64,000 nt of DNA from Halobacillus amylolyticus (GTDB lineage Bacteria; Bacillota; Bacilli; Bacillales; Halobacillaceae), in NCBI RefSeq assembly GCF_022921115.1, contig NZ_CP095075.1, positions 1,902,001-1,966,000 on the forward strand, written 5' to 3'. Shown piece by piece: positions 5,237 to 38,658 of the stretch. Each line of letters opens with the position of its first letter. The first letter of the stretch is position 1. A program made the translations under genes and the position numbers. Below the pieces are notes generated by a model that was given only the letters and a program-made list of their open reading frames with translations, had not been told where the DNA came from and made no database searches.

Positions 5237-6607
5237 TTACTCTCTCAAATCGATTTTTACTGGTTCTAATTTTACAGGTATATTGCTGCTCAAAGTACCT
5301 AAGCTAACTCTTATGACGTAATCGTTTGAATTAAATTTGCCTAAAGAACTAAGATCAAAAGTGCTTCTAAAGCGTAAATCACCCTCACTTAAAACTTTTA
5401 TAGAATGATCTATCGGTTTTTTATAAATATCCTTTTCTGATTCCTTAACGAGAGTCACATCATGCCGTGCTACATCCTTATAGAAATGGTTTTTTTTATT
5501 TTTTTCTTTTCCCTCATTGATTTGAAAATCTATAACCAGCTTATTGTCCTTCTTATTTATACTCTCCAGATTTATCGAGTGATCTTGTCGAGGAGAACTT
5601 ATTTGAACTGGTGTTTTTTGATTTAACTTCACAAACTGATCTTCTGTTTGTAATGCTACCTTTGGGTGTATTTCAATATAATCGGTTTTCCCTTTAAGCT
5701 CTTGCGGAACAATACTTCTTCCTTTTACAATCACTTGGTTGTTCTCTTTTGTTTTCTCTAAATCGATACCGTCCATCGAAATGTGGACCGTATTCCCATG
5801 ATCATCATAAGCTTCTAATCGAACCTGATCGTTCTCAGCCTCAGCTGGAAAAATTGCTGTATAATCAATTGCTGTTGAAGCCTTTCCTGCTATAATTGAA
5901 TCGAAATAAACCTTTACATTTGCTTGTTTATTGCTACTTTCCTTGTCAACCATTACAGTTTCATTAGGCAGTTGTTTAATCGGAACATCAAACTTCCACA
6001 CTCCGTCTTCATCTCCAATTTCTAGAAATTCTAAAGGAAATGTCGTGTCAGCAGGTAACTTTTCTCCTGGAAAGTGCAACTGGATTTGCCCCGTAAATCC
6101 ATTATCTGTTTGTTCCATATGAACGAGTTCTTTACTATCTGCAATAGCCTTATCTCCATTGAATATTTCATAAAATCCAGTAAGTTTTCCCCTCTGATTC
6201 GGATTAACGTCACCAGTTACATCAAAGGTAACACCAATCACAGCCCCATCATAATAAGCACTCGTAACAGTAACATCTATCCCACCATGACTAGCTGTTT
6301 CATTTAGCTTGGTAATAAGTTGCTGGGAAGCCAAGTTTCTCCCAACTAAATCATTAAAACCCATATATATTTTCCCTACTAATGGCACGTCAGCCATGAC
6401 ATGAGATACAGAGGGCACAATAAAGCTAGAAGACAGTAACGTAATAGCTGCTGCGGTCGATATAATAAATTTTCTTGTTCGACTCACCTTTTTTTTAGGT
6501 TTCGAACCCTCATCCACTTTTCGAATACCTTTTCGGATCGCCTCATTAACATCTTCTTTAGGTATTTCAATCTCTTCATATTTTTCTCGAAATAGCTTTT
6601 CCTTCAT
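5237..6607 (-). CDS. anti-sigma factor-like DUF4179 membrane protein
   Basis: A 456-residue protein with a basic cytoplasmic N-terminus, one membrane segment at about 47-70 (FIISTAAAITLLSSSFIVP), and a large extracellular region starting with a DUF4179-type domain. It overlaps the end of the upstream ECF sigma gene by 32 bases, the usual arrangement of a sigma factor and its membrane anti-sigma factor. The inferred role is to hold the sigma factor inactive until an envelope signal arrives. The start ATG has AGGGGTGGG upstream. The signal and protease are unknown. Confidence 0.8.
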   Translation of the reverse strand: MKEKLFREKYEEIEIPKEDVNEAIRKGIRKVDEGSKPKKKVSRTRKFIISTAAAITLLSSSFIVPSVSHVMADVPLVGKIYMGFNDLVGRNLASQQLITKLNETASHGGIDVTVTSAYYDGAVIGVTFDVTGDVNPNQRGKLTGFYEIFNGDKAIADSKELVHMEQTDNGFTGQIQLHFPGEKLPADTTFPLEFLEIGDEDGVWKFDVPIKQLPNETVMVDKESSNKQANVKVYFDSIIAGKASTAIDYTAIFPAEAENDQVRLEAYDDHGNTVHISMDGIDLEKTKENNQVIVKGRSIVPQELKGKTDYIEIHPKVALQTEDQFVKLNQKTPVQISSPRQDHSINLESINKKDNKLVIDFQINEGKEKNKKNHFYKDVARHDVTLVKESEKDIYKKPIDHSIKVLSEGDLRFRSTFDLSSLGKFNSNDYVIRVSLGTLSSNIPVKLEPVKIDLRE

Positions 6608-9380: not shown

Positions 9381-9588
9381 TTAATAACTCGTTCCATCCT
9401 GTTTATATTTGTAACTAGTTCCTTTAAAAACTTCCCTCACATGCCATTCTAAAAGATCTGAACTTGGCTCATGATAAAACAAAAACGGCATCCTAATGTT
9501 TTGGATTATGGAAATTCGTCATGATCTTCCTAAAGGTCCCCACCCCACTTACATACTCAGAAACCCTGGCCTTCTTAACATTCGTCAT
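9381..9588 (-). pseudogene. possible decayed small gene
   Basis: A 69-residue frame can be read if one frameshift near 9487-9492 is allowed: MTNVKKARVSEYV at the start and LLEWHVREVFKGTSYKY near the end, stopping at 9381. The family is not recognised and there is no strong ribosome binding site. Its upstream edge adjoins the 37-base direct repeat at 9591-9627. It may be a relic left by rearrangement. Confidence 0.3.
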
Positions 9589-9590
9589 AA

Positions 9591-9627
9591 TAAAAATACC
9601 TTTATCAAACAGCTTGTGATGCAGAGA
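9591..9627. repeat. 37-bp direct repeat, left copy
   Basis: Identical to 11016-11052 except for one base. Weaker similarity extends leftwards for about 30 bases (a shared CAGAAACCCT block). The two copies lie either side of the glycine betaine binding protein gene. Confidence 0.8.
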
Positions 9628-9640
9628 GGTTTGGTTCCCC

Positions 9641-9668
9641 AAATCGCGTTAACGCATTAACGCGATTT
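9641..9668. other. perfect 12-bp inverted repeat
   Basis: AAATCGCGTTAA and its exact complement are separated by CGCA. No T tract follows on either strand, so it is not a classical terminator. It lies 13 bases right of the 37-bp repeat, and could be an end structure or a protein site. Confidence 0.6.
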
Positions 9669-9963
9669 GTCACCGCAGCTTATTCCGCAGCGATTGGTGT
9701 CATAGAGTGGTGGACCATGATTTCCACGAACTTCCCCGTCCTTTTAGCTAGACAACAATCTTAAGCTGTTGTTTCTAGGCGTGCACGATATAAAAAATAA
9801 TAAAATTAGGAGCATGGTGTAATTCGGAGAAAAACGAACAAAATAAAAGCAATATATTTAAAGGTTATTATTTTTTAAACTGTACGTACTAAAATAACTG
9901 TATTTATTGTTTGAGTTATACATAGAACAAAGATAAAGTAAGGCCAAAGGAGTGTTTTACAAC
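9669..9963. other. leader region of the betaine-binding protein gene
   Basis: No gene seen. It contains a second imperfect hairpin (CTAGACAACA with TGTTGTTTCTAG, about 9750-9780) and then AT-rich DNA that must hold the promoter. No convincing pair of promoter hexamers or riboswitch was found. Confidence 0.4.
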
Positions 9964-10893
9964 ATGATTAATATTAAATGGAAAAACTTAGGTATAATTG
10001 TTGGTTTATCTTTATCTCTTGTAGCAGCGGGTTGTGGTCAGGGAGATACAGATGATACTACGAACAATGCGAATGACAGTGGAGATGAGGCCCCAAATTA
10101 TAGTGAAGAAGTAGAGTATACGATTACAGGGATAGAACCAGGAGCAGGAATAACAGAACTTGCCAAAAACACTTTAGAGGAATATGAAAACTTAGAAGGT
10201 TGGACACTTCAAGAAAGTTCAACAGCAGGTATGATAGGTGCACTGCAAGAGGCAATTCAGAACGAAGAACCAATTGTTGTAACAGGCTGGACTCCGCACT
10301 GGATATTCTCTCAATATGATTTAAAGTTCCTAGAAGATCCAAAAGGTACACTTGGCAAAACTGAAAACATCAATACAATAGTAAGGAAAGGCTTAGAAGA
10401 GGACATGCCTATTGCTTATCAAATTCTTGATCGTTTCCACTGGGAACCAAAAGATATGGAAACTGTCATGCTTGAAGCGCAAGAATCTTCTTTTGAGGAA
10501 GCTGCAAAGAATTGGGTAGAAGAGAATTCGGATAAAGTGGATGAATGGACAAAAGGTGTAGATAAGGTAGACGGAAAAGAAATCGTATTAGTATCAACCC
10601 TATGGGAGTCAGAACGTGCTTCCGGCAATGTAATGAAGGTAGTATTAGAACAACAAGGGTACGAGGTATCATTGAAAACTGTAGCTCCAGCAATTGTGTT
10701 TCAATCAATAGCTGGCGCGGATGCGGATGCAACCGTAGCTCCATGGTTGCCTACAACCCACGGCTCCTTCTATGAGAAATACAAGGAAGACTTTGTTGAT
10801 TTAGGTGAGAACTTAACAGGTACAAAAAATGGATTCGTTGTCCCTGAATACATGGACATTGAATCAATTGAGGATTTACAACCAAAAGAATAA
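9964..10893 (+). CDS. OpuAC-like glycine betaine ABC transporter substrate-binding lipoprotein
   Basis: A 309-residue lipoprotein with a signal sequence ending LVAAGC (lipid-modified Cys). The mature part has both lobes of the OpuAC family in the normal order: ITGIEPGAGI, then VTGWTPHWIF, then LVSTLWESERASGN, then VAPWLPTTHGS. The Trp residues in the last three motifs correspond to the aromatic cage that binds betaine. The ATG at 9964 is chosen over the GTG at 9952, which overlaps the AAAGGAG site. No OpuAA or OpuAB gene is adjacent, so it must use a transporter encoded elsewhere or be an orphan spare. It lies between 37-bp direct repeats. Confidence 0.92.
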   Translation: MINIKWKNLGIIVGLSLSLVAAGCGQGDTDDTTNNANDSGDEAPNYSEEVEYTITGIEPGAGITELAKNTLEEYENLEGWTLQESSTAGMIGALQEAIQNEEPIVVTGWTPHWIFSQYDLKFLEDPKGTLGKTENINTIVRKGLEEDMPIAYQILDRFHWEPKDMETVMLEAQESSFEEAAKNWVEENSDKVDEWTKGVDKVDGKEIVLVSTLWESERASGNVMKVVLEQQGYEVSLKTVAPAIVFQSIAGADADATVAPWLPTTHGSFYEKYKEDFVDLGENLTGTKNGFVVPEYMDIESIEDLQPKE

Positions 10894-10899
10894 CGATAT

Positions 10900-10939
10900 A
10901 AATAAAGGAGAACTCCTATATTGGAGTTCTCCTTTATTT
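10900..10939 (+). terminator. strong terminator after the opuAC-like gene
   Basis: A perfect 17-bp stem with a six-base loop starts seven bases after the stop codon. The stem ends are A- and T-rich, so it could act on both strands. Confidence 0.9.
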
Positions 10940-11015
10940 ATACTTTTACATCCTTTTGTTGCTTTGAAATAAAGTTTGATAAAACAGCAGCCAGAAACCC
11001 TTATTTCAATAACAG

Positions 11016-11052
11016 TAAAAATACCCTTATCAAACAGCTTGTGATGCAGAGA
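11016..11052. repeat. 37-bp direct repeat, right copy
   Basis: Same sequence as 9591-9627 with one mismatch. The 10940-11202 interval otherwise holds no gene; it also contains the blocks that recur at 2441-2495. Confidence 0.8.
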
Positions 11053-11202
11053 ACACAGGCTAATCCGTTATCTTCCACATCCGTCCCCCACACTGATGCC
11101 ACTTAATATGGGCCGCTTCCACTCCAGCATGCTTTTTCCAAATGGTAAGATGTTCGATCTTTCTCTCAGCAGCTGTTTGTCCACTCTCATTCCCCCAACT
11201 TT

Positions 11203-11526
11203 TCAATCCTCCACCTCGACTAGATAAACCCGATTATGAAACGATCCACGCTGGTCACACTTTTCACGACGGATCCTTTCTAACTGTTCTATAGAAGACC
11301 CGTGGGTTTTTGTAAAAGTATGGATTAACTCCAGTAAATCAGCTAATTCCTCCAAAGCTTCTTGATCATCTTTTGCTGCAAGATATTCGTTTACTTCTTC
11401 TTGGAGCTTGTTTTTCAATGAATCTATGTATTCCTCTTCATTTAATATACGGGTACGAATCGATTTACCTCTCCCTTCGATAATCTCAGGAATTCGGTCA
11501 CGGACAAGTTTGTTATATATGAGCAT
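11203..11526 (-). CDS. MazG-like nucleoside triphosphate pyrophosphohydrolase
   Basis: A 107-residue all-helical pyrophosphohydrolase. The N-terminus YNKLVRDRIPEII is typical of the Bacillaceae group, and the metal-binding acidic motif is EEVNEYL followed by EELADLLELI (about 43-68). The family hydrolyses NTPs or related nucleotides to the monophosphate, often for house-cleaning. A GAGGTGAGATAAGA region precedes the start. Its 5' two-thirds is duplicated at 14801-15027 on the far side of the AAA/nuclease pair. The gene itself appears intact. Confidence 0.85.
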   Translation of the reverse strand: MLIYNKLVRDRIPEIIEGRGKSIRTRILNEEEYIDSLKNKLQEEVNEYLAAKDDQEALEELADLLELIHTFTKTHGSSIEQLERIRREKCDQRGSFHNRVYLVEVED

Positions 11527-11551
11527 TTCTTATCTCACCTACTTTTCAATA
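11327..11551. repeat. long direct repeat flanking the AAA/nuclease module, left copy
   Basis: About 225 bases covering the 5' two-thirds and leader of the pyrophosphohydrolase gene. It matches 14801-15027 at about 93% by eye, with roughly 13 substitutions and two small indels. It bounds the 3.2-kb segment that carries the two defence-like genes. Confidence 0.85.
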
Positions 11552-11612
11552 GAATAGGTTTCCTATATATGGTTATACAAATTTACTTCATTACCATTCA
11601 TCTTACTTCTGG

Positions 11613-12878
11613 TCAATTCACCCTTTTTACAATATCAACCAACTCAGATTTACTTCCATCGGTTAGCGGAACATCCTCAACACAAAGGATTCCTGTTACA
11701 GACACCGGGCCACCATATACATAGTCCCCCTTATGATTCTTCACTAAATAAATGTACTCTAACAATTCCTCTAGGCCAGTAATTGCGTACTCTATCCTAG
11801 AGGTATTCTTTACTTCCCCGATGACAATCTTGATGATTTTATTTGTGTTTTGATCATATACCTCTAAAAGGAAATCAGGGCGCCCGCGCCATAAATCTTT
11901 GGAAGGTGAACGGCCAAAAAACTGGTTTGCAAGTTGATTAGATGTATGGAAAGACTGGTATTTTTGCCGCAAATAAAGATTGTTGCTTTCGGCTATTTCA
12001 TTTGATGAGATAGCGAAGCGAACTTGATTTGATCCGGTTGAGTCATGATAAAGATGGTAGATTGATGAACCTTTTTCCCAGGAGGCTACCTTGTTTTGTG
12101 ATCCATCCATTAAATGAAGTTCGCTATCGTCCGTATTATCTTTAATCAGCTGGACGATCCAGTACAACTCGAAAAGCACATCCACATTATCAGGTGCGAT
12201 GAAGGTTTCTCGGAGTAATGTCCGAATGTCCTCCTCACTGTAATTTCCCCTCACTAGACTACGGTAAGATAACAGTAGTCTTGCTGCATCGCGGTAGAGT
12301 TTGTTTCGATGGTTCAACGTTTTATGTACTATACGGTCGGATGCATGAACAGAATCAACTCGCTGCAGGTAAATATTCTTCTTGAAAGCATGGGCAATGT
12401 TCCCTTTTAATTGCTGCCACTCCAAAAACCATTTGGCACTTTCGAAACCTTTTATATATGAATCTTTATAAAGACTGGAGTATAAAAGGCCTAGCAGTTC
12501 TTTTAATACTAAATTCTCAGGTATATTATAGGAACGAATACTCTCACTGGTTGAAAAAATAGTTCTATCCTTATGATTTCTGGCCATTCGCTCTTTCGTT
12601 GTATCTGCCCAGTCCACCTCCCCCCGCACTTCACCAATGTGGGTGTCTTTTTTTGAGGCAGTGTTTGTTTTAAAACGTTTCAAAAGTATCGGCAATTGTC
12701 TTGCAAAATCCATCGTTTCATCCTTTAGTAAGAAACGAACGATCAACAGTTGTCCCAGATTGGATATATTTAGATTCATTTTTGAAAAAAATGAATTGAT
12801 TGTTACTTTTCCTGCCTTTAAATAGCCGTGTAAATATCCAGAAATCTCTTCAAGGATTGCTTCTTCTTGTACACTCAT
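11613..12878 (-). CDS. PD-(D/E)XK nuclease partner of a McrB-like ATPase (McrC-like role)
   Basis: A 421-residue protein. The C-terminal third shows a PD-(D/E)XK nuclease core: GRPDFLLEVYD (Asp) then IVIGEVKNTSRIEYA (Glu-x-Lys), followed by a helix GLEELLEYIYLVKNH. The remaining N-terminal 330 residues are mainly helical and not recognised. It starts inside the stop of the AAA gene (ATGA overlap), so the two are translationally coupled. By analogy with McrBC, the ATPase would translocate DNA and this subunit would cut it. The exact family (McrC, DUF2357 or a new branch) was not resolved. Confidence 0.75.
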   Translation of the reverse strand: MSVQEEAILEEISGYLHGYLKAGKVTINSFFSKMNLNISNLGQLLIVRFLLKDETMDFARQLPILLKRFKTNTASKKDTHIGEVRGEVDWADTTKERMARNHKDRTIFSTSESIRSYNIPENLVLKELLGLLYSSLYKDSYIKGFESAKWFLEWQQLKGNIAHAFKKNIYLQRVDSVHASDRIVHKTLNHRNKLYRDAARLLLSYRSLVRGNYSEEDIRTLLRETFIAPDNVDVLFELYWIVQLIKDNTDDSELHLMDGSQNKVASWEKGSSIYHLYHDSTGSNQVRFAISSNEIAESNNLYLRQKYQSFHTSNQLANQFFGRSPSKDLWRGRPDFLLEVYDQNTNKIIKIVIGEVKNTSRIEYAITGLEELLEYIYLVKNHKGDYVYGGPVSVTGILCVEDVPLTDGSKSELVDIVKRVN

Positions 12879-14719
12879 TCAAATCCACCCGCATCGAAGA
12901 AGTCATTTACAAAATCAAGGAGATGATTCTGATCGATAACGGCCTCTGTTTCTCCATTCAATCGATTAATGAATTCTTTTATACGATGGACTGGGAGCCC
13001 TTCAAATTGTGGCAAAACGTAGAGTATGATAGCAGAAGTAAAGTCATCATTATCCTGAGTATGTCTGGCGATATCTTCTACAATAGCAGGTCCAATCTTT
13101 CGGTAGTTATTGATCAGCTTCCAAATTACTGCCAGTGTATCGACATTTGGGTACGTCTCCATTTCCCAGACTTTCAGATACTGCTCAATCAGGTCAGCCG
13201 TAATATGATTAGGGATGCCCACCGGAATAAAGGCGAAGCGGCGCATGAATGCATAGCTCATTTCATATAAAGATGCTTTATCTATAGTATTCATCGTCGC
13301 AATAATTCGCCAGTCATTTGGAATAATATAAGTGTGATCATCTGGTTCCAGAGAAGTCATTAGTCCCTGGTGCTTCATAATAATGGACTTCCCACGTTTT
13401 GATTCAAACGGCAGTGTCACTTCATCCCCAGTTAATACAGAAAACAACGAGCCAAATGCCTTATCGATATCTGCACGATTTATTTCATCGATAATTAACC
13501 ACTTATTGTCTGGTTGGTTCGTCTCCTTATCCTTCACACATCTCAGAAAGATTCCATCATCAAAATACAGATTCCCTTCTCGATCAGGGCGATAGCCTCC
13601 AATCGTTTCATAAGTAGACCAATTAGAAGCTGCCGTTACCATGATTGGTTGAATATCGTACATTTCACATATCTTACTTGCTAGCTTCGATTTCCCCGTA
13701 CCTGGAGGACCTGTCAAAATAATATGTTTTCCTTTGCGGATGGCGGTCATTACTTGATCCAGAAGGATGTCTAAGTTTTCAAAAACCAGCCCATCTTCCA
13801 AACGATCCACATTAAAATTGACTGTAGGAATAGTCTTATCGGTAGCGGGTTGAATAACATCTTCAGTTTTATTTGCCTTCCTGTTATCTTTTGGGCGCTT
13901 TTCACCTGTTTCCTTAGTACCTCTCCATTTCCCCTCAATACTAGGTGTATGATAAAAATCTATTTCTGCCTGATATTTATTCTCCAGTTTTTCCCTAATA
14001 ACGTATAATTGTCCATCTGTATCATCTATTGAATCATCTGTAATCAAATTAGAAAAAGCTTTCACAATCTTATTCTTGTGTCCCCAACTTGCAATTCGTT
14101 CAAAATAATTCGGGAGCAATAAATGGAGGATAATATTTTGCATTTGCACCCTTTTCCCTACTTTTTGACGTTCGTTGTCTACGACTGCTTTCAGTTTCAT
14201 TTCATCACTAAAAATCTCTTTTCTTTCATCAAGTTGGTTACTTTTTAAAGATTCCACAACTAAAACTAAGAAAGACACCTCAAAGTACTTACTTGTGTTG
14301 AAGAAAGTTCCTGTAGAACCCAACCCCTGTTCCAACCCCTGAAAAATAGGAAGGGACCGATCGAAATCAATATCCTTCCATGAAGCGATCATTTCTAACT
14401 TTCTCATCTTCGTTTCATAGCTTGTTGAGCTTCTCACAGGGTAGATATAATAAATAAACAATAATTCAATCACGAACTTATATGTATCTTCAGACTCATT
14501 TTCTAACTGCTTCCTCAATTTATCGTCAAACGAGTCCCCGGATTCATCAGGGCTTTCGATAAATATATTTATAAACCTACTAATATTGTGAGCAGTCCAA
14601 ATAGGTTCTCCATCCCAAATCAAAGATCCATCATTCAATAAGCAATTTTCTTTCCATTTTTCAGCAGCATCATATACTGCCTTCCTATCGCCTTTTTTCA
14701 CTTCATAGTAAATCGCCAT
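12875..14719 (-). CDS. McrB-like AAA+ NTPase
   Basis: The C-terminal half is a MoxR/dynein-type AAA+ module like McrB: Walker A GPPGTGKSK, Walker B KWLIIDEINRAD, sensor-like IIATMNTIDKAS and arginine-finger region YAFMRRFAF. The N-terminal 300 residues show no domain I can name; in McrB this part reads modified DNA, so it may hold target recognition. The ATG at 14719 has TGGGGA about ten bases upstream. A GTG at 14758 would add 13 residues but has no good site. The gene overlaps the nuclease gene by four bases. Probable type IV restriction-like defence pair; GTP versus ATP use is untested. Confidence 0.85.
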   Translation of the reverse strand: MAIYYEVKKGDRKAVYDAAEKWKENCLLNDGSLIWDGEPIWTAHNISRFINIFIESPDESGDSFDDKLRKQLENESEDTYKFVIELLFIYYIYPVRSSTSYETKMRKLEMIASWKDIDFDRSLPIFQGLEQGLGSTGTFFNTSKYFEVSFLVLVVESLKSNQLDERKEIFSDEMKLKAVVDNERQKVGKRVQMQNIILHLLLPNYFERIASWGHKNKIVKAFSNLITDDSIDDTDGQLYVIREKLENKYQAEIDFYHTPSIEGKWRGTKETGEKRPKDNRKANKTEDVIQPATDKTIPTVNFNVDRLEDGLVFENLDILLDQVMTAIRKGKHIILTGPPGTGKSKLASKICEMYDIQPIMVTAASNWSTYETIGGYRPDREGNLYFDDGIFLRCVKDKETNQPDNKWLIIDEINRADIDKAFGSLFSVLTGDEVTLPFESKRGKSIIMKHQGLMTSLEPDDHTYIIPNDWRIIATMNTIDKASLYEMSYAFMRRFAFIPVGIPNHITADLIEQYLKVWEMETYPNVDTLAVIWKLINNYRKIGPAIVEDIARHTQDNDDFTSAIILYVLPQFEGLPVHRIKEFINRLNGETEAVIDQNHLLDFVNDFFDAGGFE

Positions 14720-14800
14720 GTAACTTGATCCCCACTTTAAAAATGTATTCCTTTCCACCTTACTATAACAAACAGAGAGTTCAACACACTAGATCAATAT

Positions 14801-15027
14801 AACTCTAGTAAATCGGCTCACTCCTCAAAGCTTCTTGATCATCTTTTTTGCTGCAAGATATTCGTTTACTTCTTCTTGGAACTTGTTTTTCAATGAATCT
14901 ATGTATTCCTCTTCATTTAATATACGGGTACGAATCGACTTCCCTCTCCCTTCGATCATCTCAGGAATTCGGTCACGGACGAGCTTGTTATATATGGGCA
15001 TTTCTTATCTCACCTGCTTTTCAATAT
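14801..15027 (-). pseudogene. truncated duplicate of the pyrophosphohydrolase gene (right direct repeat)
   Basis: Second copy of the MazG-like gene from its start (ATG at 15001, YNKLVRDRIPEMIEGRG visible) to about residue 52. Two extra A bases in the run near 14848-14853 shift the frame, giving a stop after about 58 codons. Homology then ends near 14801, just upstream of the AAA gene. It is the right-hand member of the long direct repeat. Its leader with GAGGTGAGATAAGA is preserved and could still supply a promoter reading into the AAA operon. Confidence 0.85.
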
Positions 15028-15178
15028 ACAGAGTTCTTATATATACATAATTAGACATTCCCCCACCATAATCCTCTTACCTGCAACCAAAAATAGATAG
15101 ATTGCATGATTTTAAATGTTCATTCAATTTGGTACATTGTATACGGTTTCTATTATAATTCAAGGGGGAAAAAGACGG

Positions 15179-17218: not shown

Positions 17219-17233
17219 TACGAAATAGTTAAG

Positions 17234-17266
17234 CCAGCAGAATGTGGGGATTCTGCTGGCTTTTTT
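17234..17266 (+). terminator. terminator, CCAGCAGAAT family
   Basis: AGCCAGCAGAAT pairs with ATTCTGCTGGCT and is followed by TTTTTTT, just after the 5'-nucleotidase gene. Near-identical stems recur at 37086, 38629 and 49121, and a looser one at 26103. Confidence 0.9.
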
Positions 17267-37065: not shown

Positions 37066-37085
37066 ACAGAATAGTAATCTAGGTA

Positions 37086-37119
37086 GGCCAGCAGAATGTT
37101 TGATTCTGCTGGCTTTTTT
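37086..37119 (+). terminator. terminator, CCAGCAGAAT family
   Basis: GGCCAGCAGAAT / ATTCTGCTGGC with TTTTTT, 20 bases after pbuX. Same stem as at 17234. Confidence 0.9.
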
Positions 37120-38422: not shown

Positions 38423-38628
38423 TCCTACTTCCCCCTATTTTAAAAAGCACCTATTAATTCGCCTTATTTAATTTTACTTGTTCAATTTTTTCGCGATAAA
38501 AACCCTGTATTCATTACACATTCTATTTTCTTGATAAAAGTCCTGCTAAGTGAGCACTGGTCGCTTTTTGTGATAGTGCTTTGACTAGAGGGAACGTTCA
38601 TGATCGCTTCATCCAATAGTAATAGTTA

Positions 38629-38658
38629 AGCCAGCAGAATGTAGAGGTTCTGCTGGCT
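38629..38658. repeat. CCAGCAGAAT-family hairpin without T tract
   Basis: AGCCAGCAGAA / TTCTGCTGGCT preceded by AATAGTTA, the same flank as at 17234. No T run follows on either strand, so it is probably a displaced or decayed terminator. No plus-strand gene lies to its left. Confidence 0.6.

Follow-up and report, generated by a model that had tools for sequence, protein, structure and literature searches.

A probable McrBC-type module inserted, with target duplication, into a mazG-like gene of Halobacillus amylolyticus

Two coupled genes, one for an AAA+ protein and one for a nuclease, lie in this stretch of DNA between duplicate 5' segments of a mazG-like gene, and the arrangement raises the questions of how the pair came to lie there, what it might do, and whether the MazG-like protein has any part in it. 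Coordinates are collected in Table 1. When the window (the whole 64-kb stretch analysed, which was the only baseline for comparing repeats) was searched against itself with blastn, six direct repeats were listed, and the lowest E-value among them, 4e-94, belonged to the pair 11326-11570 and 14800-15044 (247 columns, 91.5% identity). The core of this repeat is identical in 213 of 225 ungapped columns, with 4 gap columns in addition, or 93% over 227 bases by blastn. This confirms the direct repeat of about 93% that an earlier note on the same DNA had placed on either side of the two genes, and the open reading frames, 107 codons at copy A, which is part of the complete gene, against 58 at copy B, agree with its description of the repeats as the intact and the 5'-truncated copy of one MazG-like gene.

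Table 1. Features of the locus, in positions of the window
Feature	Position	Strand	Basis
McrB-like AAA+ gene, 614 aa	12875..14719	-	AAA_5, E 1e-17 (Pfam)
AAA+ core, residues ~316-607	12899..13774	-	
N-terminal domain predicted all-helical, residues ~13-266, presumed target recognition	13922..14683	-	AlphaFold2 model
McrC-like PD-(D/E)XK nuclease gene, 421 aa	11613..12878	-	Foldseek match to McrBC
Catalytic stretch G-R-P-D335 ... G-E355-x-K357	11808..11876	-	Residue conservation
Intact MazG-like gene, 107 aa, last in presumed operon	11203..11526	-	ORF and near-threshold PRA-PH score
Left copy (A) of duplicated mazG 5' segment	11326..11551	-	Self-blastn and alignment
Right copy (B) of duplicated mazG 5' segment, running on into native upstream region	14800..15026	-	
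Truncated mazG frame within copy B, 58 codons and stop	14825..15001	-	ORF of the gene's 5' part
Spacer from copy A to nuclease stop, 61 bp, weakly similar to native region past copy B	11552..11612	-	
Broken 3' part of phosphorothioate-DNA HNH gene, resident mazG neighbour	9420..9630	-	Match to intact protein of G007
Second fragment of same HNH gene, opposite side of OpuAC gene	11008..11064	-	Match to intact protein of G007

In a genome of the same genus (G007) the corresponding place holds a single uninterrupted mazG; the flanks on both sides are in order there and the module is absent, and because this place is a single gene there the duplication goes beyond chance. Taken together, the repeats and the empty site indicate that the module entered a mazG already in place, within its 5' part, of which about 227 bp now stands in two copies as a target duplication. 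The earlier note had proposed just such an insertion and had pointed to an empty site with an undivided MazG-like gene in relatives, and G007 supplies it. In two further relatives (G006 and G008) mazG occurs once, next to a nucleotidase gene, and only one flank is shared with the window, the G008 gene containing frame shifts; none of the three has the doubled mazG in the absence of the module, an arrangement that the note had named as contrary to its reading. Between the repeats there is no further minus-strand reading frame of at least 70 aa besides the two module genes, hence no transposase or integrase among such frames, and the two plus-strand frames found there (12800-13270 and 13383-13595) both lie inside the module genes.

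The order resulting from the insertion, all on one strand, is native upstream side, truncated mazG', mcrB, mcrC and complete mazG, so that mazG stays whole and ends what is probably a single mcrB-mcrC-mazG operon. A promoter scan returned 7 sites against a shuffle mean of 13.0, and promoters and terminators were rarer than in shuffled sequence; the operon call therefore rests on strand and spacing. The start of the nuclease gene overlaps the end of the McrB-like gene in the sequence ATGA, which couples the two in the order mcrB to mcrC.

The nuclease gave no match in Pfam, PADLOC or NCBIfam at E <= 1, DUF2357 included, and its profile found nothing among PDB sequences at E <= 10, so that only the fold revealed its likeness to McrC. 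In Foldseek the three matches at E <= 0.001 were all McrBC chains (6hz4_M, E 9.6e-9; 6ut6_G, 6.1e-7; 6ut7_G, 5.2e-6), chains M and G of these entries being presumably McrC, which fits their lengths. The 6hz4_M match covers residues 47-421 at an rmsd of 15.9 Å, and for 6ut5_G the alignment takes in 135 residues of the region 38-207 at 4.0 Å; given that the long superpositions on McrC have rmsd values of 13-16 Å, the domains appear to be displaced. All 33 aligned homologues retain residues D335, E355 and K357, and the loss of conservation in the Asp/Glu-Lys motif that the earlier note had regarded as fatal to its reading was not seen. Four relatives of the nuclease were likewise missed by PADLOC, and none of the 120 homologues listed for this McrC-like family bears a Pfam domain.

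For the AAA+ protein an alternative GTG start lies upstream at 14758, and the ATG at 14719 agrees with the starts of homologues. McrB chains of the PDB were matched at E of about 1e-21 with profile A2 of the protein, midasin at lower E still, and McrB came top for the AAA part in both Foldseek and VIA, with NorQ and CbbQ nearly tied. Residues G342, K343, D411, E412, N477 and D480, which make up the Walker and N-x-x-D motifs, were kept in 34 of 34 aligned homologues. In PADLOC, a search that the earlier note had suggested for both proteins, the best match of the AAA+ protein was REase_II and the nuclease had none. By predicted fold, then, the pair is McrB/McrC-like, which supports the type IV restriction-like module that had been suspected, with a function that would be defence.

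The N-terminus of the McrB-like protein had been noted as some 300 residues with no nameable domain, and this was upheld: the first 300 residues have no Pfam match at E <= 0.01, and residues ~13-266 are predicted by AlphaFold2 to fold into 14 helices, with pLDDT mostly near 90. No fold of the PDB was matched by this helical part among the rows listed, all of which were filled by the AAA core, and it may therefore still have a known fold. By tblastn (E <= 1e-3) the helical N-terminus was found at 13 of 28 distinct related loci and was not found at a further 13 with the AAA core; 10 proteins of about its own size match it, several of them perhaps fragments. An EVE domain (PF01878) occurs on relatives of the McrB core among the 120 homologues listed for the AAA+ protein.

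Flanking repeats were sought at 29 of the 30 rows listed for the module, which represent 28 distinct loci (L044 is L064, and L049 is L094); L093 was left out, a second AAA match having stretched the module to the end of the locus, and L066 and L090 had short left flanks. No flanking direct repeat was found at E <= 0.001 in 24 of the 29 rows, and one was found in five (four loci). The repeat in G041 (191 bp, 88%) was rejected as a target duplication, being a dispersed genomic repeat (48 matches are listed for G041 and 61 for G151, the majority falling on this stretch), and the 571-bp repeat in G211, the 3' end of spoVR with several partial copies, marks an insertion hotspot and is not clearly a case of the same mechanism. 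The others were at L049/L094 (44 bp, 93%) and L051 (85 bp, 72%). Given that most rows have no flanking repeat, and that dispersed and hotspot cases are among the rest, long duplication is no habit of the module family.

We consider it likely that the locus holds a small McrBC-type (type IV-like) module that was inserted with target duplication into mazG and that probably forms an operon with MazG for use in the same defence. In such a module the helical N-terminus of McrB would bind a site that carries a modification or some other mark, the AAA+ ring would translocate, and McrC would join the ring and cut the DNA, with MazG probably assisting this defence through hydrolysis of abnormal or modified dNTPs. 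This last role is suggested because relatives of mazG often adjoin nuclease genes, modification-dependent ones included.

The MazG label itself is weak by profile for the proteins of the window and of G007, the former scoring 21.2 bits with PRA-PH against a Pfam cut-off of 21.3, and the latter having no Pfam match at E <= 0.01 and none in NCBIfam. Three of eight other family members tested (L046, L092 and L033) pass a curated PRA-PH, MazG or MazG-like cut-off, and E43, E44, E47, E60 and D63, which make up the acidic motif E-E-x-x-E ... E-x-x-D of MazG and PRA-PH proteins, are invariant in 10 of 10 sequences.

At 13 of 30 loci of a phosphorothioate-DNA HNH restriction gene (the best 30 of 36 matches above the family cut-off) a relative of mazG is found no more than about 1.5 kb away; the 13 come from six genera represented by four, three, three, one, one and one loci, a count that ignores relatedness. 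A mazG-type neighbour was present at none of 31 control loci, for which genus was not matched (12 loci at spoVR from a single genus, 12 at a dispersed repeat and 7 at N6-methylase genes in the genome of the window); the expectation of 0.023 behind the neighbour counts was derived from the 52 matches listed and 61 genomes of about 4 Mb. Seen from the side of mazG, at 29 loci drawn from 38 other genomes with a match, eight have no recognised nuclease neighbour, and at L010 an HNH gene lies 1.1 kb away. Among DUF2357 loci, 3 of 30 have mazG (one of them, L172, is the place in G045 also listed as L027), a number that may be low since the DUF2357 gene is long and mazG is reached only at the edges of the loci; L184 is similarly the place in G295 also listed as L093. 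Two of the helicases neighbouring mazG are called mREase_IV by PADLOC. The associations at L046, L092 and L093 resemble defence islands. In G007 the HNH gene beside mazG is intact, and its protein matches NF045808 at E 2e-96. With so recurrent a nuclease neighbour mazG is hardly a neutral target for insertion, a point absent from the earlier note.

It was not unreasonable to consider that MazG is nonetheless a bystander, defence genes clustering in islands and the insertion beside mazG having no functional meaning, and we give this a substantial chance, somewhat short of even. The three island-like loci and the eight without a recognised nuclease are consistent with it, as are neighbour counts that take no account of relatedness and controls that differ in their mix of genera. 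Against it, mazG adjoins several unrelated types of nuclease, its presence at 13 of 30 phosphorothioate-HNH loci in six genera exceeds what loose clustering easily gives, and the insertion in the window leaves mazG complete, in the orientation of the module genes.

The duplication might also have arisen by homology-guided arrival, in which an incoming mcrB-mcrC already lying before a related mazG recombined into the resident gene, and the partial copy was left where the other side was joined unequally or illegitimately. The order of nuclease then mazG on one strand does recur (at L092 of G096, where some 0.2 kb separates the two; in G001, where the nuclease is a relic; and in G045, where it is a DUF2357 McrC), and the 61-bp spacer resembles the native upstream region while being far more diverged than the core. 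Its anchored score against the copy B side was 26, reached by 0 of 300 shuffles, and against G007 it was 24, reached by 25 of 300, with five of seven spacer comparisons in one set no better than chance; an extension of the duplication into the spacer is suggestive only. However, both copies look native (93.3% identity to G007 for A and 91.0% for B, the two agreeing against G007 at 11 sites), and no stretch of foreign mazG is visible, so we regard this route as unlikely.

Still less probable is that the pair is the restriction half of a LlaJI- or BsuMI-like restriction-modification system that has lost its methyltransferase and cuts unmodified DNA. Both proteins match 9a5m (titled YDJA-YDIS, which we take to be the BsuMI subunits) in Foldseek, the AAA+ protein at E 8.1e-7 and the nuclease weakly at 1.9e-3, and a gene for a C5 methylase is found in G096, 2.6 kb downstream of mazG. 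LlaJI, which resembles McrBC, is described as acting together with methyltransferases (PMC1459862). In the genome of the window, on the other hand, neither PF00145 nor PF01555 is matched at E <= 0.001 (PF02384 is matched seven times, never inside the window), and an unprotected nuclease would attack its own genome. That the repeat is an artefact of assembly may be dismissed, as no point was found in its favour, 12 of 225 aligned sites and a further 4 gap columns set the copies apart, and the locus lies in a 4.15-Mb contig with both flanks fitting G007.

Returning to an McrBC-type module with MazG in the same defence, we can offer a wider proposal, tentatively and with more doubt than confidence. 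A MazG-like dNTP pyrophosphohydrolase might regularly form the third part of several unrelated modification-dependent systems (phosphorothioate-HNH, PLD-helicase and two McrC families), clearing away modified dNTPs, which would keep host DNA free of the targeted mark whether that came by salvage of phage DNA or from the chemistry of the host itself. The module in the window, with a new helical reader, would then have acquired its mazG from a phosphorothioate-HNH system in decay, and insertion with target duplication would have produced an McrB-McrC-MazG operon.

The locus offers a relatively dated McrBC-type insertion with long target duplication and its empty site in hand, and we know of no such report for an McrBC-type pair in this group. 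It points as well to an McrC family whose member in the window is missed by Pfam, PADLOC and NCBIfam, paired with McrB cores of varied N-termini, and it raises the testable question of why MazG-like genes travel with restriction enzymes. We found no publication joining MazG with phosphorothioate and restriction endonuclease, nor, among the 15 of 48 literature matches listed, with type IV restriction; three papers came up for MazG with McrBC. MazG is among the predicted, unvalidated defence domains given for DefensePredictor (PMC13092281), and a MazG-like human enzyme is described as preferring dCTP and 5-methyl-dCTP and as lowering DNA methylation (PMC4491611).

With McrBC of E. coli K-12 and T. 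gammatolerans the window has in common an AAA+ protein with N-x-x-D, a PD-(D/E)XK partner that matches McrC by model, and the order mcrB-mcrC, and its genome has no PF00145 methylase either. It differs in a nuclease without sequence match in Pfam or among PDB chains, and in an N-terminus predicted to be all-helical and without Pfam match, whereas those described are DUF3578, EVE or YTH (PMC7641849). EVE-McrB proteins are reported there as abundant in Firmicutes; relatives of the window's McrB core among the 120 listed homologues include EVE proteins, but its own N-terminus is not EVE. LlaJI and BsuMI share the McrB/McrC-like pair, the 9a5m fold matches and the REase_II call, yet the window genome, having no PF00145 methyltransferase, has no linked C5 methyltransferase. 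CoCoNuTs likewise combine a McrB-type GTPase with an McrC partner, with N-x-D (PMC11090510) in place of the N-x-x-D of the window family. A SauUSI-type enzyme is reported with a neighbouring MutT, a nucleotide pyrophosphohydrolase (PMC7641849, in whose main text "MazG" occurs 0 times), where the window has a MazG-like protein. Finally, insertion of restriction genes with long direct target duplication, the site being uninterrupted in a relative, is described for restriction-modification genes of Helicobacter pylori (Nobusato et al. 2000, as cited in PMC1643837 and PMC3031569); in the window the inserted genes are an McrBC-type pair in Bacillales, and the target gene is itself often found beside nucleases.

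The AAA and nuclease gene pair, bounded by a direct repeat of a MazG-like gene as the earlier note had described, was confirmed in the window. The two copies of the mazG 5' segment agree in 213 of their 225 ungapped columns; one belongs to a complete gene and the other is truncated, with a reading frame of 58 codons followed by a stop. The window spans G000:C1:1902001-1966000, and the named relatives of the module are Bacillales.

Features of the module and the adjoining HNH gene remnants in the window
Feature	Position	Strand	Remark
mazG 5' part, copy B, truncated	14800-15026	minus	first in transcription order
AAA gene (McrB-like)	14719-12875	minus	second in transcription order
Nuclease gene (McrC-like)	12878-11613	minus	third; overlaps AAA gene by ATGA
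Complete MazG-like gene	11526-11203	minus	fourth; its first part is copy A
Copy A of mazG 5' segment	11326-11551	minus	start of complete MazG-like gene
NF045808-type HNH gene, fragments	9420-9630 and 11008-11064
OpuAC-domain gene (PF04069)	9952-10893		splits the HNH gene
37-bp direct repeat	9591-9627 / 11016-11052		flanks OpuAC gene; 97% identical; single in G007

The MazG label was assigned from the PRA-PH score of the window protein (21.2 bits against a cut-off of 21.3), from the passing of the curated cut-off by 3 of 8 further family members, and from residues E43, E44, E47, E60 and D63, which are invariant in 10 of 10 MazG-like sequences and which we take to be the MazG acidic motif. The MazG-like protein of G007, a genome of the same genus, gave no Pfam match at E <= 0.01. 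The genome also carries a second, more distant mazG (G000:C1:1777658-1777978, L056; 59% protein identity, one stop in the match), and at 2442-2559, some 8.7 kb away from the complete mazG, remains of its 3' region and downstream sequence are preserved (56 columns at 82% and 45 columns at 89% identity).

The proposal that the segment is mobile, by insertion with a long target duplication, is borne out by G007, where a single undivided mazG, encoding a protein 88% identical to the window's, stands in an uninterrupted site with the window's gene order (nucleotidase gene, mazG, HNH gene, DUF2975, HTH, next gene). In G006 and G008 a single mazG, disrupted by frame shifts in G008, adjoins the nucleotidase gene and the other flank is unlike the window; the module nuclease was not found in G006, G007 or G008 (E <= 0.001). 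Judged from this comparison, the module is evidently inserted with a target duplication of about 227 bp, a pattern reported in 2000 for restriction genes in Helicobacter, according to passages of PMC1643837 and PMC3031569 citing that work. It is no rule for this family, flanking repeats being absent in 24 of the 29 module rows tested. Relative to G007, 11 differences are common to copies A and B, 8 occur in B alone and 3 in A alone, which places the duplication after the split from G007 and indicates that the truncated copy decays faster. Copy A is separated from the nuclease stop by 61 bp in which the native upstream region seems to continue in strongly diverged form; the similarity of this spacer to B is reached by 0 of 300 shuffles and that to G007 by 25 of 300. 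This could mean that the module arrived from a relative, guided by homology.

The gene after mazG in G007 is intact and encodes a 284-aa NF045808 protein (NCBIfam; phosphorothioated DNA-binding restriction endonuclease; E 2e-96). The corresponding HNH gene of the window lacks about 500 bp, survives as fragments and is split by the OpuAC-domain gene; the former nuclease neighbour of mazG is thus broken, and the McrBC pair now precedes the same mazG. The stretch 9591-11052 is itself a second insertion with target duplication, less than 5 kb from the module, at a site uninterrupted in G007.

Among 29 mazG loci of related genomes, a 329-aa-type HNH gene was found in 11 (one 1.1 kb off), a PLD-helicase adjoins mazG in 8 (PADLOC best match mREase_IV for both tested), and a phosphorothioate-DNA HNH gene (G007) and a DUF2357-PDDEXK_7 McrC (G045) occur in one each; at 8 a recognised nuclease neighbour is absent. 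The G045 gene (L027, 2-1821) lies directly before mazG, in the window's order, yet its McrC is recognised by Pfam. Conversely, of 30 phosphorothioate-DNA HNH restriction loci (L173-L202; best 30 of 36 matches), 13 from six genera have a MazG-like gene no more than about 1.5 kb away, as do 3 of 30 DUF2357 loci and 0 of 31 control loci unmatched by genus, the chance expectation being 0.023 per set; these counts take no account of relatedness among genomes. Around the module itself, mazG lies within 5 kb in 4 of 30 rows (L046, L047, L092, L093), and G001 has a relic of the module's nuclease directly before a mazG. As a target of insertion mazG is hardly random, and the neighbour counts suggest that MazG-like genes are linked, unexpectedly, with modification-dependent restriction.

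Other repeats were also seen. The spoVR 3' end (up to about 650-700 bp) recurs as partial copies in the genus of G211, among them 5722-6290 and 14297-14866 of locus L095; G211 has copies at 3793378, 3796670 and 3801721 ahead of the full gene at 3810249, with the McrBC-like module between the last two of these positions, which looks like an insertion hotspot leaving gene ends behind. A dispersed repeat of about 190 bp (L063, 5371-5561 and 11975-12161) is present dozens of times in G041 and G151, of one genus, the copies being about 90% identical, and a repeat of about 40 bp occupies three places in the window (17224-17266, 37080-37119, 38621-38658; 88-92% identical).

No nameable domain had been recognised in the N-terminus of the AAA protein, and a Pfam search of it likewise gave no match; the predicted structure is all-helical, with 14 helices over residues 13-266 and pLDDT mostly near 90. 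Across 28 distinct related loci this N-terminus is present in 13, the McrB core stands with no detectable copy of it in 13, and a partial core or none was found in 2; EVE (PF01878) proteins with the same core occur among the relatives listed. Hence the nuclease is the constant partner and the N-terminus the variable one, which is what a part that sets specificity should show. Of 397 genomes in the order, 20 carry the nuclease family (E <= 1e-20).

The reading of the earlier note is supported. Insertion, duplication, motifs and gene order are seen, the folds are predicted, and the working as a defence module is inferred. Most probably the helical N-terminus would read a mark on DNA, the AAA ring would move the DNA and McrC would cut it, and MazG may hydrolyse away modified dNTPs, keeping the mark out of host DNA. 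According to PMC4491611, a human enzyme of the MazG-like kind has dCTP and 5-methyl-dCTP as its preferred substrates and reduces DNA methylation; passages of PMC7641849 describe SauUSI homologues accompanied by a MutT homologue, and an excerpt of PMC13092281 places MazG among predicted, unvalidated defence domains. We hypothesize that MazG and type IV enzymes may form one functional unit. Neither PF00145 nor PF01555 methylases were found in the genome that holds the window, and this favours a modification-dependent enzyme over an R-M enzyme of the LlaJI kind. The evidence supports, as a new variation on known elements, a pair of the McrBC type whose N-terminus is unusual and whose insertion went with a long target duplication.
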